Part shown: positions 1,013-5,316 of the stretch, piece after piece
How positions within the stretch are numbered: the first letter of the stretch is position 1
Layout: every line of letters starts with the position of its first letter
Assembly: GCA_002402535.1 (NCBI GenBank)
Contig: DHGB01000055.1
Coordinates: 1,093 to 6,408 of the forward strand
Direction of reading: 5' to 3'
DNA from: Candidatus Shapirobacteria bacterium UBA4809
GTDB lineage: Bacteria; Patescibacteriota; Microgenomatia; UBA12405
DNA: 5,316 nucleotides
Made by a program: the position numbers and the translations under genes
Notes under the pieces: model-generated
The model's input: only the letters and a program-made list of their open reading frames with translations
Database searches by the model: none
Told to the model about the DNA's origin: nothing

Positions 1013-1021
1013 TGTTAAAAT
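1013..1021 (+). promoter_or_regulatory. proS: Candidate -10 element for leaderless proS
   Basis: TGTTAAAAT contains the extended -10 form TGtTAAAAT, with the hexamer TAAAAT at 1016-1021 only 5 bases before the proS ATG. Transcription from it would start at or next to the ATG. No Shine-Dalgarno-like purine run occurs in the preceding 20 bases, which read mostly T and A. The -35 region would fall in the hairpin's 3' arm and is poor, so this box would rely on the TG extension. GTTA and TAAC (1014-1024) also form a tiny palindrome. Confidence 0.4.
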
Positions 1022-1026
1022 AACTT

Positions 1027-2256
1027 ATGAAATACTCACAATTATTTGGCAAAACTAGCAAGACCGTTGCTTCCGATGCTGATAGTATTAACGCAAAATT
1101 ATTAACTCAGGCCGCTTTTATTCAAAAACAAATTTCCGGTGTTTACAATTATTTACCATTAGGTTTGAGGGTTTTAACAAAGATTCAAAATATAATCCGT
1201 GAAGAAATGAATAAAATTGATGGTCAGGAAATTTTGATGCCGGCCATGACTCAAGAGGAAAGTTGGATTACTACTGGTCGCAATACTATGGAGGTTCTTT
1301 TTCATCTCAAAGGTCAGGGTGATACTAATTTAGTTTTAAATCCCACTCATGAAGAAGTGGTTACTCCCTTAGTTCAAAAATATGTATTTTCTTATCGAGA
1401 TTTACCTTTGGCTGTTTATCAAATTCAAACAAAGTTCCGAAACGAGGCTCGGGCCAAATCTGGTCTTCTCCGTGGTCGGGAATTCAATATGAAGGATCTT
1501 TATTCTTTTCATATCGACGAAACTGATTTAAACCGTTATTACGAGATTGTTAAACAAGCCTATTTTAAAATATATGAACGAATTGGTATTGGTCAAGAAA
1601 CGGTATTAACCTTCGCTTCCGGTGGAAATTTTTCCCAATTTTCTCATGAATTTCAAACTTTAAACGAAGGTGGCGAAGATACTATTTATTTATGTCCCAT
1701 TTGTCGTGTCGCTGTCAATAAAGAAATAATTGACACCCAAAAAACTTGTCCTGAATGTGGCAGTGATAAATTGGAAGCTGTCAAAGCCACCGAAGTTGGT
1801 AATATTTTTAAATTAAGAACTAAATTCTCAGAAGCTTTTAAGTTTTATTATTCTGATTCTCAGGGACAGAAAAAAATTGTGGAAATGGGTTGTTATGGTA
1901 TGGGTCCCTCTCGGGTTATGGGGACTGTGGTTGAACTACGTCACGATGACGTCGGTATTATTTGGCCAAAAAACATTGCCCCTTATCAGATTCACTTAAT
2001 TGGTCTTGACGGTCTCGGTGAAGATTTATATCAGGAATTACTGTCAAAAAATGTTGATGTTATTTTTGATGATCGTGAAATTAGCGCCGGAGCAAAATTT
2101 GCTGATGCTGATTTAATTGGTATTCCTATTCGTCTTGTTATCAGTCAAAGAAGTCAGGAAAAAGGCGGCATAGAATTTAAATTAAGGTCAGAAAAAGAAT
2201 CTGAAATTATTGAAGCAAAAGACTTGGTCTCTAAGATTATTAAATTCTATAATTAA
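1027..2256 (+). CDS. proS: Proline--tRNA ligase (ProRS), compact form without INS editing domain
   Basis: Class IIa aminoacyl-tRNA synthetase that activates proline with ATP and loads it onto tRNA-Pro in the cytoplasm. The start is right: MKYSQLFGKT and the following YLPLGLRVL align with the family N-terminus. Visible elements are the motif 1 region (about 55-80), the proline-binding TxE loop NPTHEE (105-110), motif 2 FRNEARAKSGLLRGREF (137-153) continuing into MKDLYSF, motif 3 GCYGMGPSR (288-296), and the C-terminal anticodon-binding domain (about 319-409, with DDREISAGAKFADADLIG). At 409 residues it is far shorter than the usual bacterial form of about 570. The roughly 180-residue INS domain, which hydrolyses Ala-tRNA-Pro, is absent between SHEF (206-209) and EVGNIFKL (256-263). 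In its place is a short four-cysteine segment, CPIC (223-226) and CPEC (241-244), probably a zinc ribbon. Motif 3 has proline where GIGVSR is usual. Similar short enzymes are known in alphaproteobacteria. Confidence 0.96.
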   Translation: MKYSQLFGKTSKTVASDADSINAKLLTQAAFIQKQISGVYNYLPLGLRVLTKIQNIIREEMNKIDGQEILMPAMTQEESWITTGRNTMEVLFHLKGQGDTNLVLNPTHEEVVTPLVQKYVFSYRDLPLAVYQIQTKFRNEARAKSGLLRGREFNMKDLYSFHIDETDLNRYYEIVKQAYFKIYERIGIGQETVLTFASGGNFSQFSHEFQTLNEGGEDTIYLCPICRVAVNKEIIDTQKTCPECGSDKLEAVKATEVGNIFKLRTKFSEAFKFYYSDSQGQKKIVEMGCYGMGPSRVMGTVVELRHDDVGIIWPKNIAPYQIHLIGLDGLGEDLYQELLSKNVDVIFDDREISAGAKFADADLIGIPIRLVISQRSQEKGGIEFKLRSEKESEIIEAKDLVSKIIKFYN

Positions 2257-2268
2257 TTTATTGATTTT

Positions 2269-2299
2269 TAGAGTTTAGACTTTTTCTATTTTTACTCTA
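2269..2299 (+). repeat. Short inverted repeat upstream of ftsK, overlapping its -10 box
   Basis: TAGAGT (2269-2274) and ACTCTA (2294-2299) are perfect 6-base inverted arms separated by 19 bases of T-rich sequence. The left arm overlaps a tandem 7-mer pair, TTTAGAG (2267-2273) and TTTAGAC (2274-2280). The right arm overlaps the TATACT box. It could be an operator or a weak hairpin at the proS 3' end. The arms are short and AT-rich, so chance is a real alternative. Confidence 0.25.
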
Positions 2300-2303
2300 T
2301 ACT
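2274..2303 (+). promoter_or_regulatory. ftsK: Candidate promoter for leaderless ftsK
   Basis: TATACT at 2298-2303 is a strong -10 match (5 of 6 to TATAAT) ending 6 bases before the ftsK ATG. TTTAGA (2274-2279) is a partial -35 (4 of 6) at 18-base spacing. The predicted start falls at about 2309-2311, on the initiation codon itself. No ribosome binding site precedes the ATG. The 8-mer TCTATACT (2296-2303) recurs at 5051-5058 before the last gene at identical distance from its ATG. Confidence 0.55.
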
Positions 2304-2309
2304 GTATTT

Positions 2310-4448
2310 ATGCCTCGTGGACGCAAGAAAAACCGAATTCTCCCAACTCTAAAACTTAAACCAGATACCGTTAAATCAATCTTCTTTATTTTCTTTCTAA
2401 TATTAGCCATATTATCGGTATTTTCCTTTCTTCAGCAGGGGACTATTGCTACTGAGGTTAATTTAATCTTAACTAAATATTTTGGCTGGGGAGCAGTCAT
2501 GGTTCCTTTTTTATTTCTTTTAATCTCTTTTCTCTTTACCAAAGTGAAATCTGCTCTTCGTGAAGCCAATGTCTTTTTTGGTTTTACTATTATGTTTTTT
2601 GCTCTTCTTGGCCTTTTTAAGCAAGGCTTTCTCGGTGCCTTTTTTTGGGAGCAATTTTTGGCTCTATTTTCTGAAGTTCTCACCTTTATTATTTTCTTTT
2701 TTGCCCTAATTGTCGGCTTTGTAGTTCTTTTTGATACCAATGTCGCTCAGATTTTTAAATTCTTTGCTCATCTTTTTCAAATGATTAAAAAGTATTCTAT
2801 TGGTCAAAGTAATAAACTAAAAGATAAAAAAGCGAAGCAGTTAGCCCAAAACCCAATTTACCAATCAGAAATGAACTCTTCAGCCAATTCCGAATTAAAT
2901 TTAAGCCGGGATAAAGATATCTCAAAATCAAGTGCCAAGGCCGACTTTGGTGTTGTCAACATTCCTCCGGTTATGAAAAATTCTTCTCCTCTTACCTCTT
3001 CTGGCAATCAGACCTGGGTTTATCCTTCTCTTTCAATTTTTGATGACACTCCCGGAGCCAAGGCCGACAGGGGAGATGTTCGTAAAAATGCCCAGATTAT
3101 CGAAAAAACTCTCGATTCTTTCGGAATTACGGCTCGGGTAGCTGAGGTTAACAATAGCCCTTCTGTGACTCAGTACGCTCTCGAAGTTTCTCTTGGTACC
3201 AAGCTTGCCAAAATTTTATCTCTCAGTAATGATCTGGCTATGGCCCTGGCTGCTCCTGGTGGTCAAATTCGAGTTGAAGCACCCATTCCCGGTCGCTCTC
3301 TCGTTGGTATCGAAATGCCAAATCGTTCTCTAGAGGTGGTTCCCATTAGAACTGTCTTGGAGTCTGAGGCCATGAAAAATGCCAAAAGTAAAATTTCCGT
3401 TCCCCTCGGTCTCGATGTGGCTGGTCAGGCTAGAATTGCTGATATTTCTAAAATGCCCCACGTTTTAATTGCCGGTCAAACTGGGTCGGGAAAATCAATC
3501 TGTATTAATTCCTGGATTTCAACCTTACTTTTCAGGGCTTCTCCTGATGAAGTTCGTCTAATTATGGTCGATCCAAAGCGGGTTGAACTTTCACAGTACA
3601 ATGGTATTCCTCATCTACTTACCCCAGTTATCGTTGAACCAGAAAAAGTTGTTTCTGCTTTAAAATGGGCGGTTAATGAAATGGAGCATCGTTATAAACT
3701 GTTTACTGAAGTTGGAGCCAAAAACATTGAAGGTTACAACAATATGTCCGGTTTTCAAGCCATCCCCTATATTTTAATTATAATTGACGAGCTAGCCGAA
3801 ATCATGCTTTTTTCTCCCGCCGAAGTTGAAGACAACGTTTGTCGCATTGCTCAAATGGCTCGGGCCGTCGGTATCCATTTGGTCTTGGCCACGCAGCGGC
3901 CCTCAGTTAATATCATTACTGGTCTTATCAAAGCCAATATCCCCACCCGCATTGCTTTTGCTGTAGCTTCAATGACCGATTCCCGGGTTGTTTTAGATAC
4001 TCCCGGTGCCGAAAAGCTTCTCGGTCGCGGCGATATGCTCTATATTCCCCCCGATTTAGCCAAGCCCGTTAGAATTCAGGGATGCTTTATTTCTGACAAA
4101 GAGGTTAATCGCTTAATTGATTTTCTAAAAACTCAGCGCAGTGGTGATTACAATGATGAGATTACAAAACAACCAGTTAGCAGCCCCAATTCAATCAGTA
4201 AAAATATTATGGTCAGTGACGGTCAGGAACGAGATGCTGTTTTTGACGATGCTGTCAAGCTGATACAAGACACTGGTAAGGCCTCAGCCTCTTTCATGCA
4301 GCGTCATCTTAAACTCGGTTATGCCCGCGCCGCCCGGGTTCTCGACGAGCTTCAAGCAGCTGGTATTGTTGGTCCAGTTAATGGTGCTAAACCCCGAGAA
4401 ATTTTAATTCCCCATAAAAGTTCTTCCGATAATAGTTTGGAAGGATAA
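2310..4448 (+). CDS. ftsK: DNA translocase FtsK/SpoIIIE
   Basis: Membrane-anchored hexameric DNA pump that moves chromosomal DNA through or away from the closing division septum using ATP. Order of parts: basic N-terminus (PRGRKKNR); about four hydrophobic segments (roughly 23-44, 58-77, 88-110, 121-142); a short polar, low-complexity linker (about 160-240, Ser/Lys-rich); the alpha domain (about 255-345); the RecA-like motor with Walker A GQTGSGKS (389-396), DPKRVELSQY (421-430), Walker B IIIDELAE (490-497), LATQRPSVNIITG (526-538); and a C-terminal gamma winged helix (about 642-700, with LKLGYARAARVLDELQ) that in the family reads polar DNA sequences. At 712 residues it is complete and SpoIIIE-sized, without the very long linker of E. 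coli FtsK. The ATG at 2310 is the natural start, shortly before the first membrane segment. The stop TAA (4446-4448) lies 5 bases before the next gene, so the two are almost certainly co-transcribed. Confidence 0.96.
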   Translation: MPRGRKKNRILPTLKLKPDTVKSIFFIFFLILAILSVFSFLQQGTIATEVNLILTKYFGWGAVMVPFLFLLISFLFTKVKSALREANVFFGFTIMFFALLGLFKQGFLGAFFWEQFLALFSEVLTFIIFFFALIVGFVVLFDTNVAQIFKFFAHLFQMIKKYSIGQSNKLKDKKAKQLAQNPIYQSEMNSSANSELNLSRDKDISKSSAKADFGVVNIPPVMKNSSPLTSSGNQTWVYPSLSIFDDTPGAKADRGDVRKNAQIIEKTLDSFGITARVAEVNNSPSVTQYALEVSLGTKLAKILSLSNDLAMALAAPGGQIRVEAPIPGRSLVGIEMPNRSLEVVPIRTVLESEAMKNAKSKISVPLGLDVAGQARIADISKMPHVLIAGQTGSGKSICINSWISTLLFRASPDEVRLIMVDPKRVELSQYNGIPHLLTPVIVEPEKVVSALKWAVNEMEHRYKLFTEVGAKNIEGYNNMSGFQAIPYILIIIDELAEIMLFSPAEVEDNVCRIAQMARAVGIHLVLATQRPSVNIITGLIKANIPTRIAFAVASMTDSRVVLDTPGAEKLLGRGDMLYIPPDLAKPVRIQGCFISDKEVNRLIDFLKTQRSGDYNDEITKQPVSSPNSISKNIMVSDGQERDAVFDDAVKLIQDTGKASASFMQRHLKLGYARAARVLDELQAAGIVGPVNGAKPREILIPHKSSSDNSLEG
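4439..4445 (+). promoter_or_regulatory. Shine-Dalgarno sequence of the RodZ-like gene, inside the end of ftsK
   Basis: GGAAGGA, with AAGGA (4441-4445) complementary to the 16S rRNA 3' end, sits 8 bases before the ATG at 4454 and overlaps the last codons of ftsK. It supports the 4454 start and translational coupling to ftsK. It is the only convincing SD in the window. GATAAT at 4444-4449 also resembles a -10 box 4 bases before the ATG, a weaker alternative reading. Confidence 0.7.
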
Positions 4449-4453
4449 TCGAT

Positions 4454-5050
4454 ATGAAACGTGCTTCAGCTATTCTCGAGTCAGCTCGCCTTGATCGGGA
4501 AATTGATTTTGAAGAAATATGCAAAAAAACTAAAATTCCTCTCCGTTATCTTATCGCCTTTGAAAACGAAAACACTAAAGAATTTCCGGAGGAGCCCTAC
4601 TGTTCTTTGATGGTCAAGGATTATGCTCAGTTTTTAGGTTTAAATGGAGACGAACTTCTCTCCCTTTTTCGTCGCGATTACAACCGGCACTTGCCAACAA
4701 ACTCAACCCCTCGTTCCTTATTTTCCTTAACCCCCCAATTTACCTTTTCTTTTTTTATTGTTTTACTTTCACTTTCTTTTGTTGTTTATTTAGTTTCAGA
4801 GTATTTAAAATTCAATCGTCCACCCCCTCTTGAAGTTGTCTGGCCCGAGAATTTCTCCGAGTCTTCACTCAAAATATCCGGAAAAACCGATCCCCAGTCG
4901 ACCGTTAAAATAAATGATACTTTGGTTTTAGTTGATATTGAAGGTAATTTTACCAAAGAGATTCAAATTTCTACTCCCGAGGCTAAAATTGTCATTGAAG
5001 CTGAATCTCCCGCTGGCAAGGTCACCATTGATGAAAAAGTTCTAAAATAG
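4454..5050 (+). CDS. RodZ-like membrane-anchored helix-turn-helix protein with Ig-like outer domain
   Basis: Residues 5-75 form a RodZ-type helix-turn-helix (HTH_25-like): AILESARL, then DFEEICKKTKIPLRYLIAFE, FPEEPYCSLMVKDYAQFLGL and DELLSLF follow the family pattern L.EAR...L.LEE.A..TKI...YL.A.E....LP...Y...F...YA..LGLD..EL. A linker (76-95) precedes one membrane segment (about 96-117), so the N-terminus should be cytoplasmic and the rest outside. After a PPP turn (123-125), residues about 126-198 alternate beta-strand patterns with SGKTDPQSTVKIND and VDIEGNFTKEIQI, resembling Ig-like/glucodextranase-B-type domains. In rod-shaped bacteria RodZ links MreB filaments to wall synthesis through the HTH. 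The position 5 bases after ftsK fits a cell-shape or division role; ftsK and rodZ are also near each other in Bacillus. The HTH could be a protein-binding rather than DNA-binding module. Architecture is clear; exact function is inferred. Confidence 0.8.
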   Translation: MKRASAILESARLDREIDFEEICKKTKIPLRYLIAFENENTKEFPEEPYCSLMVKDYAQFLGLNGDELLSLFRRDYNRHLPTNSTPRSLFSLTPQFTFSFFIVLLSLSFVVYLVSEYLKFNRPPPLEVVWPENFSESSLKISGKTDPQSTVKINDTLVLVDIEGNFTKEIQISTPEAKIVIEAESPAGKVTIDEKVLK

Positions 5051-5058
5051 TCTATACT
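5028..5058 (+). promoter_or_regulatory. Candidate promoter for the leaderless 83-aa ORF
   Basis: TATACT at 5053-5058 ends 6 bases before the ATG at 5065, the same arrangement as before ftsK, within the shared 8-mer TCTATACT. TTGATG (5028-5033) is a partial -35 (4 of 6) at 19-base spacing, inside the end of the RodZ-like gene. No Shine-Dalgarno sequence lies in the 14-base gap. The predicted transcript would start at or beside the ATG. Confidence 0.5.
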
Positions 5059-5064
5059 ATTCCT

Positions 5065-5316
5065 ATGGATATCAATCAAATTGTCATCATTATCTCTCTT
5101 TTATCTATTTCTACTGTTGTTGTTATCGTCGGTATTTATCTTATCAAGCTGATAAAAGATTTAAGGGTAACCGTTAGAGAAACTAATCAAATCATTTCTT
5201 CTGTTTCTCGTCCTGTTTCTTCTTTTTCAGAATTTTTAATGGGTTTCAAAAATGGCTTTTCCCTTTTTAATTCCTTTTTTAATAAAGATAAAAAAGAAAA
5301 AAAAGATAATAGTTAA
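5065..5316 (+). CDS. Small single-pass membrane protein of unknown function (83 aa)
   Basis: I do not recognise this protein. Residues about 5-29 form one strongly hydrophobic helix rich in Ile, Val and Leu (IVIIISLLSIS to IVGIYLI). It is followed by positive residues (KLIKDLR), which suggests the C-terminal part stays in the cytoplasm. Residues 30-50 (DLRVTVRETNQIISSVSR) look helical and resemble the start of DUF948-type or YtxH-like small membrane proteins, but the match is only by general style. Residues 54-72 carry phenylalanines at 54, 57, 61, 65, 68 and 72, which would line one face of an amphipathic helix. The tail KDKKEKKDNS is highly charged. The gene is complete, with TAA at 5314-5316 on the window edge. 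It starts 14 bases after the RodZ-like gene and has its own TATACT box. Small size leaves some doubt, but the TM/charge layout and packing make it a credible gene. Confidence 0.7.
   Translation: MDINQIVIIISLLSISTVVVIVGIYLIKLIKDLRVTVRETNQIISSVSRPVSSFSEFLMGFKNGFSLFNSFFNKDKKEKKDNS

Follow-up and report, generated by a model that had tools for sequence, protein, structure and literature searches.

Leaderless genes with a −10 box standing before the ATG are already known from Actinobacteria and Deinococcus, and in the archaeal scheme leaderless first genes are paired with Shine–Dalgarno (SD)-led internal genes. Sigma70 promoters also take an extended −10 form, TGnTATAAT, typically without a −35 signal. 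Here we analyze a 5,316-base stretch of the draft genome of Candidatus Shapirobacteria bacterium UBA4809 (G000:C45:1093-6408; hereafter the window, meaning the whole stretch), in which hexamers resembling −10 boxes lie 5 or 6 bases before the start codons of proS, ftsK, and a small open reading frame (ORF) for an 83-amino-acid (83-aa) protein. The host belongs to an uncultured, small-genome family of the Candidate Phyla Radiation (CPR), a large and almost wholly uncultured share of bacterial diversity. We read these hexamers, which recur across the genome and family, as most likely being −10 boxes of sigma70-type promoters, in some cases extended, placed 5–7 bases before the start codon; the reading draws on their position, conservation, consensus, and TG extension, and on SD cores near background.

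Two published systems are closest. Across 953 genomes, Zheng et al. 2011 (PMC3160421) interpreted TANNNT located ~12 bases ahead of the start as the −10 element of leaderless, or TA-led, genes, with TAtAAT in low-GC (guanine-plus-cytosine) genomes; the accessible text of that paper names Actinobacteria and Deinococcus-Thermus, with >20% of genes TA-led. According to the accessible text of Zhong et al. 2025 (PMC12340547), a −10 box stands directly before the ATG of, on average, ~30% of Deinococcus-Thermus ORFs; it works without a −35 element, its bases 1, 2, and 6 are irreplaceable, and it helps to correct gene starts. The same genomes carry a clear ribosome-binding site (RBS) motif, and the wider survey in that work excluded unclearly classified and symbiotic species. 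Leaderless transcription has also been surveyed in 5,007 genomes with GeneMarkS-2, as told in the accessible part of the StartLink paper (PMC9581028).

The genes studied here are like TA-led genes in motif and position, and like those of Deinococcus-Thermus in having the box before the ATG. They differ from the former, as named in the text available, in belonging to CPR bacteria with SD use near background, and from the latter, whose RBS motif is clear in the part of the source at hand, in that near-background SD and in boxes that fill tandem gaps. Our literature search returned no report of leaderless genes with a −10 box in CPR, where genome surveys may nonetheless include CPR members, and none joining leaderless and Microgenomates. 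Papers combining leaderless with Patescibacteria, CPR bacteria, or Saccharibacteria concerned other matters, among the matches listed and in their accessible text; for SD or transcription start sites, no CPR report appeared among the matches listed. Judged from sequence, what appears new is the lineage, the near-background SD use alongside an anti-SD that relatives retain, and the presence of boxes in short intergenic gaps.

−10-Like Hexamers Are Conserved at Window Genes and Enriched Genome-Wide

A preliminary description of the window had placed TAAAAT at 1016–1021 before proS, TATACT at 2298–2303 before ftsK, and TATACT at 5053–5058 before the 83-aa ORF, all on the forward strand, and had reported no SD for these genes. 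All three hexamers are present as placed, and the 17 bases before each ATG contain no AGGA, GGAG, or GAGG core. The proS hexamer ends 5 bases before the ATG at 1027 and is the only one of the three with a TGn extension (TGT at 1013–1015), giving the extended box TGT-TAAAAT at 1013–1021. The ftsK hexamer ends 6 bases before the ATG at 2310. The third, within the 14-base gap past the rodZ stop, has the same 6-base distance to its ATG at 5065.

Relatives retain these arrangements. Orthologues of ftsK begin at the same Met as the window gene, and seven of the eight relatives shown (L046–L051 and L054) have the box at exactly the window's spacing of 6 bases, reading TATACT, or TATTAT in L050; the distant L053, whose upstream sequence is incomplete, has no box at 6-base spacing. 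All eight relatives examined for the 83-aa ORF carry TATACT, TAAACT, or TATAAT 5–7 bases before its ATG, and both relatives with an alignable proS start (L047 and L049) carry TAAAAT or TATAAT 5 bases before it. The ftsK and 83-aa ORF boxes are retained across relatives while the remaining upstream sequence diverges.

For genome-wide counts, genes and starts were called from codon content alone, ignoring upstream sequence, and a strict box was defined as TA[AT][AT][ACT]T beginning at −13 to −11 relative to the start codon. From 305,319 bases of the window's own genome (36% GC), 307 genes were called and 286 used, leaving out those running off contigs or with <60 upstream bases. Strict boxes preceded 57 of the 286, against 14.5 expected (mean of the other upstream bins; largest bin 20) and a mean of 17.6 (maximum 31) when the 30 bases upstream were shuffled 500 times. 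The excess was also seen in divergent genes only (15/70 vs. 4.6 expected) and after removal of tandem genes in which the box might overlap a stop codon (49/266 vs. 13.7). A family sample, comprising the own genome, genomes G004, G010, G011, and G020, and eight ftsK-relative loci (767 genes, 755 usable), gave 187/755 vs. 38.2 expected. Among 158 genes whose starts are supported by a Met1 aligned across species, a set that counts some orthologues more than once, 66 carried the strict box (7.8 expected) and 12 an SD core (controls 12, 8, and 13).

Control genomes behaved differently: E. coli gave 1/75 boxes, and phage T4 (34% GC) gave 0/80 (4.0 expected) with SD cores at 41/80. Because AT-rich T4 yields no boxes, AT richness alone does not create the peak. 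We sampled in part 17 CPR genomes, the own genome included; one of them, G063, was set aside because heavy masking makes its GC read 0.09 (its counts were 6/30 boxes vs. 1.1). The −10 hexamer peak at −12 to −7 anticipated in the preliminary description extends from the own genome to the genus and family members sampled and to part of the class, and a TANNNT-type peak about 12 bases upstream and above shuffles, by which Zheng et al. 2011 recognize TA-led genes, is likewise present.

A seedless search recovered the same element. One-motif expectation-maximization (EM) was run with random starts and free position and with upstream sequence displaced by 40 bases as control. In the own genome it placed TAaAAT at −12 (0.33) and −11 (0.13), with a gain of 171 compared with 69 for the control. 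TATAAT-type boxes at −13 to −11 were returned for G004 (gain 86 vs. control 66), G010 (57 vs. 45), G011 (81 vs. 41), G020 (88 vs. 59), G033 (72 vs. 42), and G036 (61 vs. 26), and pooled loci L046–L052 and L054—seven titled Shapirobacteria, with L048 titled Patescibacteria—yielded TAtAaT. On E. coli K-12 the procedure returned AAGGAG. Two-motif EM found no SD motif in the own genome, so an RBS motif of the kind that serves Deinococcus-Thermus as a second start signal was not recovered there; it was recovered in pooled Saccharibacteria.

The Hexamer Has Features of an Extended −10 Promoter Element

Within the family, TGn directly precedes the hexamer in 53/189 cases at the start-site position; where this hexamer occurs at other places, the figure is 27/419 (P = 3e-12), and the own genome gives 14/57 vs. 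10/157 (P = 8e-4). The extended −10 arrangement thus holds for the boxes as a class, with TGn in only 28% of family boxes. In pooled Saccharibacteria (48% GC), T occurs at 31/61 and G at 28/61 of the TGn positions. Known extended −10 sigma70 promoters are alike in TGn and in lacking a −35 signal; the boxes here differ in that TGn share and in abutting start codons. Also as in Deinococcus-Thermus, the box stands directly before the ATG, and no −35 signal accompanies it; the match is one of an absent signal, not of function.

Box position is narrow: 157/187 strict boxes in the family begin at −12 or −11, and 30/187 at −13. Transcription starts usually have a pyrimidine at −1, and a pyrimidine occupies that position in 118/157 genes with a box at −12 or −11, compared with 320/568 genes without a box. 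The host's own RpoD aligns with solved SigA chains over residues 4–360, nearly full length and including the C-terminal part (E = 2.5e-118).

Boxes Concentrate in Short Tandem Gaps, and SD Use in the Window's Family Does Not Follow Operon Position

Strict boxes in the family are commonest in tandem genes with 8–25-base gaps (54/89; 3.8 expected). Other contexts gave 44/174 for divergent genes (11.2 expected), 32/194 for gaps >60 bases (10.3), 20/65 for gaps of 26–60 (4.3), 25/147 for gaps of −5 to 7 (4.2), 5/51 for deeper overlaps (2.7), and 7/35 at contig edges (1.8). The corresponding SD cores, with three controls each in parentheses, numbered 15 in divergent genes (17, 8, 12), 18 at gaps >60 (11, 13, 11), 3 at 26–60 (0, 5, 5), 5 at 8–25 (6, 7, 6), 16 at −5 to 7 (12, 6, 8), 2 in deeper overlaps (1, 1, 2), and 4 at contig edges (2, 5, 2). 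Since genes with 8–25-base gaps are often boxed, promoters of their own are probable for many tandem genes. EM within the −5 to 7 class gave no start motif above control (gain 115 vs. 120), and because most genes touching an upstream stop carry neither box nor SD, they are likely coupled or reinitiated.

At individual gap lengths, 8/10 genes with an 8-base gap are boxed, and the upstream stop codon can itself supply the start of the box. With gaps of 13–15 bases the figure is 17/23, and stop, box, and ATG follow one another nearly without spare bases.

The preliminary description had further proposed a dichotomy in which first genes are leaderless and operon-internal genes SD-led. Its leaderless half is well supported from sequence; its dichotomy half fails in this lineage. 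First-vs.-internal counts pooled the family under one codon model, for which reason their totals differ from the other family totals. SD cores precede 17/186 internal genes (9.0 expected) and 30/359 first-like genes (23.3 expected; P = 0.75); in the own genome they precede 9/81 and 13/138, respectively (P = 0.82). A preference of boxes for first genes did not emerge either, with 75/359 first-like vs. 29/186 internal genes in the family (P = 0.17) and 27/138 vs. 8/81 in the own genome (P = 0.08). With SD near background in both classes and the rodZ SD not conserved, we reject the split for the window's lineage.

The rodZ start illustrates the point. The GGAAGGA described as its SD is present at 4439–4445, but it forms the coding end of ftsK (last codons; stop at 4446–4448) and is not conserved: an SD-like core precedes rodZ in 2 of 8 relatives (a weak gaaggg in L046, GGAG in L047), and the run is probably not required. 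The rodZ gene (4454–5050) begins 5 bases past the ftsK stop. Eight relatives share its Met, which lies 2–6 bases past that stop in seven and 10 in L048 (gaps judged by eye), and we predict that rodZ translation is probably coupled to that of ftsK.

The proposed split does occur elsewhere in the CPR. Genome G037 has SD cores at 16/38 internal vs. 5/40 first-like genes (P = 0.005) and boxes at 3/38 vs. 10/40 (P = 0.07). Relative to the archaeal scheme, the predicted leaderless first genes are alike, and G037 shows the SD half as well; the internal genes of the window's family are not SD-led. In pooled Saccharibacteria the split concerns boxes only (0/69 internal vs. 24/300 first-like; P = 0.01), with SD in both classes (28/69 internal, 123/300 first-like). 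SD cores among box genes (2/37 in Saccharibacteria, 5/181 in the family, 0/21 in G037) were not used as proof, because their scarcity is partly geometric, the box occupying SD positions.

EM on the Saccharibacteria pool gave two start signals, AAGGAG (share 0.49) and AtAATA at −11/−12 (share 0.40). That pool comprises 44 of 80 ftsK-relative loci, among L057–L125, and includes L071 and L117, titled only Patescibacteria; its members share the ftsK region and hence are not independent. Because both start signals coexist there, a cultured Saccharibacterium could test leaderless starts in the CPR.

The Strict Box Predicts Gene Starts

Gene finders in common use rely chiefly on SD sites. Adding the upstream signal to coding-only calls shifted 156/765 family starts; for 43 of these, orthologues whose own starts had stayed in place allowed a verdict. 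Where the new start had a strict box, orthologues agreed in 11/11 cases, some of the 11 being mutual orthologues; this bears out the suggestion that the promoter could serve as a gene-start predictor. Where it had none, orthologues favored the new start 13 times and the coding-only start 19 times, and we rejected the complete EM model as an improved start caller. The strict box predicts starts; the remainder of the EM model does not. A promoter box at fixed distance before the ATG would serve as start predictor and promoter map at once.

Probable Leaderless Transcription and Competing Explanations

We consider it very probable, on the sequence patterns above, that −10 boxes produce leaderless mRNAs in this family, that touching genes reinitiate, that many genes with 8–25-base gaps have their own promoters, and that SD plays a minor part. 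With boxes 5–7 bases before the start of many genes and SD hardly above chance, the transcripts of these genes likely carry the start codon at their very 5′ end. The housekeeping-sigma RNA polymerase would start at the A of the ATG, or within a base or two, and ribosomes would begin at the 5′-terminal AUG of the leaderless mRNA. Genes touching or slightly overlapping an upstream stop, such as rodZ, would probably be translated by termination–reinitiation, and many of those with an 8–25-base gap would be transcribed from their own box. SD-led initiation would probably be a minor route in the family, though the 16S rRNA of relatives retains the anti-SD core.

Several results weigh against this explanation. 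No −35 signal was found at spacers of 15–19 in the family, nor a TTGA peak in pooled Saccharibacteria; a −35 element was therefore rejected, and promoter activity is accordingly a prediction. Divergent start-supported genes show boxes at 3/19 (1.8 expected) and SD at 4/19 (controls 1, 0, and 1). Estimates of how many genes are leaderless vary with the way starts are called: the excess is 15% by strict box and 19% by TANNNT with coding-only starts, unlike the 37% of the start-supported set, and the EM posterior exceeds 0.5 in 122/294 own genes with chance level not subtracted. EM gave no TATAAT motif in G023 and G034; with two motifs, the gain in G010 (68 vs. 72) and G041 (85 vs. 95) did not reach that of the displaced control, and in G004 (127 vs. 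119) and G023 (97 vs. 96) barely exceeded it. Some touching or slightly overlapping genes are boxed too (the −5 to 7 class above). SD is rare, not gone, with 29 cores in the own genome vs. 19.7 expected and an excess at family internal genes (17 vs. 9.0), and the 16S end of the own draft genome was not found.

Bacteroidetes use an AT-rich non-SD start signal, with SD near background, and the hexamer could in principle be such a ribosome-binding signal, acting in RNA with no promoter involved. Its place just before starts, the near-background SD, and the boxing of short-gap tandem genes at least as often as divergent ones all fit. We nevertheless judge this improbable: the consensus is that of the sigma70 −10 box; the TGn extension contains a G rather than A or T, is depleted at the same hexamer elsewhere, and recurs in Saccharibacteria at 48% GC; the box-to-ATG spacing matches the usual −10 to +1 distance; and the −5 to 7 genes, most in need of an RNA signal, give no motif above control. 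Genuine −10 elements might instead produce leaders of a few bases, or belong to true starts further downstream, so that the genes are not strictly leaderless. The boxes at −13 are compatible with that, and the scan covered −13 to −11 only, whereas a box lying farther out would leave a leader several bases long. The concentration at −12 or −11, the start Met shared by orthologous proteins, and the 11/11 agreement at box starts make this account highly improbable. That the peak is a chance product of AT-rich sequence and start choice we regard as scarcely credible. The low GC content, at which the strict hexamer occurs at ~5% per 3-base bin, would favor it, but starts were called without upstream sequence, the observed count lies far outside the shuffles, T4 has no boxes, and boxes are conserved across species.

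Most Relatives Retain the Anti-SD and Matches to Translation Factors

A tail match to the anti-SD core CCTCC at the 16S end was found in 27/37 relatives' genomes and in 8/10 of the same genus. IF3 scored above cut-off in 37/37 relatives. S21 matched in 32/37, 11 above cut-off, and an S1-like match occurred in 36/37, none above a cut-off that only 2 of 14 control genomes passed; by place and length, some of these are other S1-domain proteins. Because the anti-SD, IF3, S21-like, and S1-like parts are found in relatives, SD disuse is not explained by factor loss, and we rejected missing translation factors as its cause. Loss of Era was rejected as well (above cut-off in 29/37). An anti-SD kept in a lineage with hardly any SD use would make it possible to test what role remains for the anti-SD and how translation proceeds without SD.

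A side observation concerns the 16S 3′ end. In the window's family (L132–L145), TTTGAGG directly follows the anti-SD in 14/14 fetched tails, four further family tail matches lying outside the 14 compared; GAGG stands after CCTCCTTT in the family 16S gene. TTTGAGG can fold back on the anti-SD core through 4–5 base pairs, at −4.1 to −5.5 kcal/mol. In 8/8 tails from non-family members (L126–L131, L206, and L207), pairing of this kind is preserved by different letters, at −2.8 to −5.8 kcal/mol, and the E. coli tail has none. A further-reaching account, in which the family has nearly abandoned SD, promoters or reinitiation set starts, tandem genes are for the most part singly transcribed from boxes in the 8–25-base gaps, and the adjoining GAGG masks the anti-SD, may be entertained, and we think it unlikely.

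Other Features of the Window

The draft genome comprises 555,024 bases in 67 contigs and is 85% complete. Genes in the window are ordered as the C-terminal part of RNase J, a class II aminoacyl-tRNA synthetase (proS), ftsK, a RodZ-like helix-turn-helix protein, and the 83-aa ORF. The proS-like gene (1027–2256, forward strand like all that follow; predicted leaderless) matches Pfam PF00587 (class II core) and PF03129 (anticodon-binding domain); its name comes from the preliminary description, the domains alone giving class II (G, H, P, S, T). The ftsK/spoIIIE DNA translocase gene (2310–4448, predicted leaderless) contains FtsK_alpha, FtsK_SpoIIIE, and FtsK_gamma. The closest relatives of its product come from Candidatus Shapirobacteria, at 94% and 89% identity, followed by one from a Patescibacteria bacterium at 84% and by others from Shapirobacteria at 80% and 79%, which places the source in the CPR/Patescibacteria. 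The RodZ-like protein combines HTH_25 with a predicted membrane stretch. The 83-aa protein (5065–5316, predicted leaderless) is hydrophobic over an N-terminal stretch and matched no Pfam entry at E ≤ 0.001; tblastn found orthologues in 8 of 9 relatives (L046–L054).

On contig C45 (L025), a run of N directly before window base 1 splits the RNase J gene. Because the N-terminal part upstream of this run reads in another frame, we attribute the frame change to an assembly gap.

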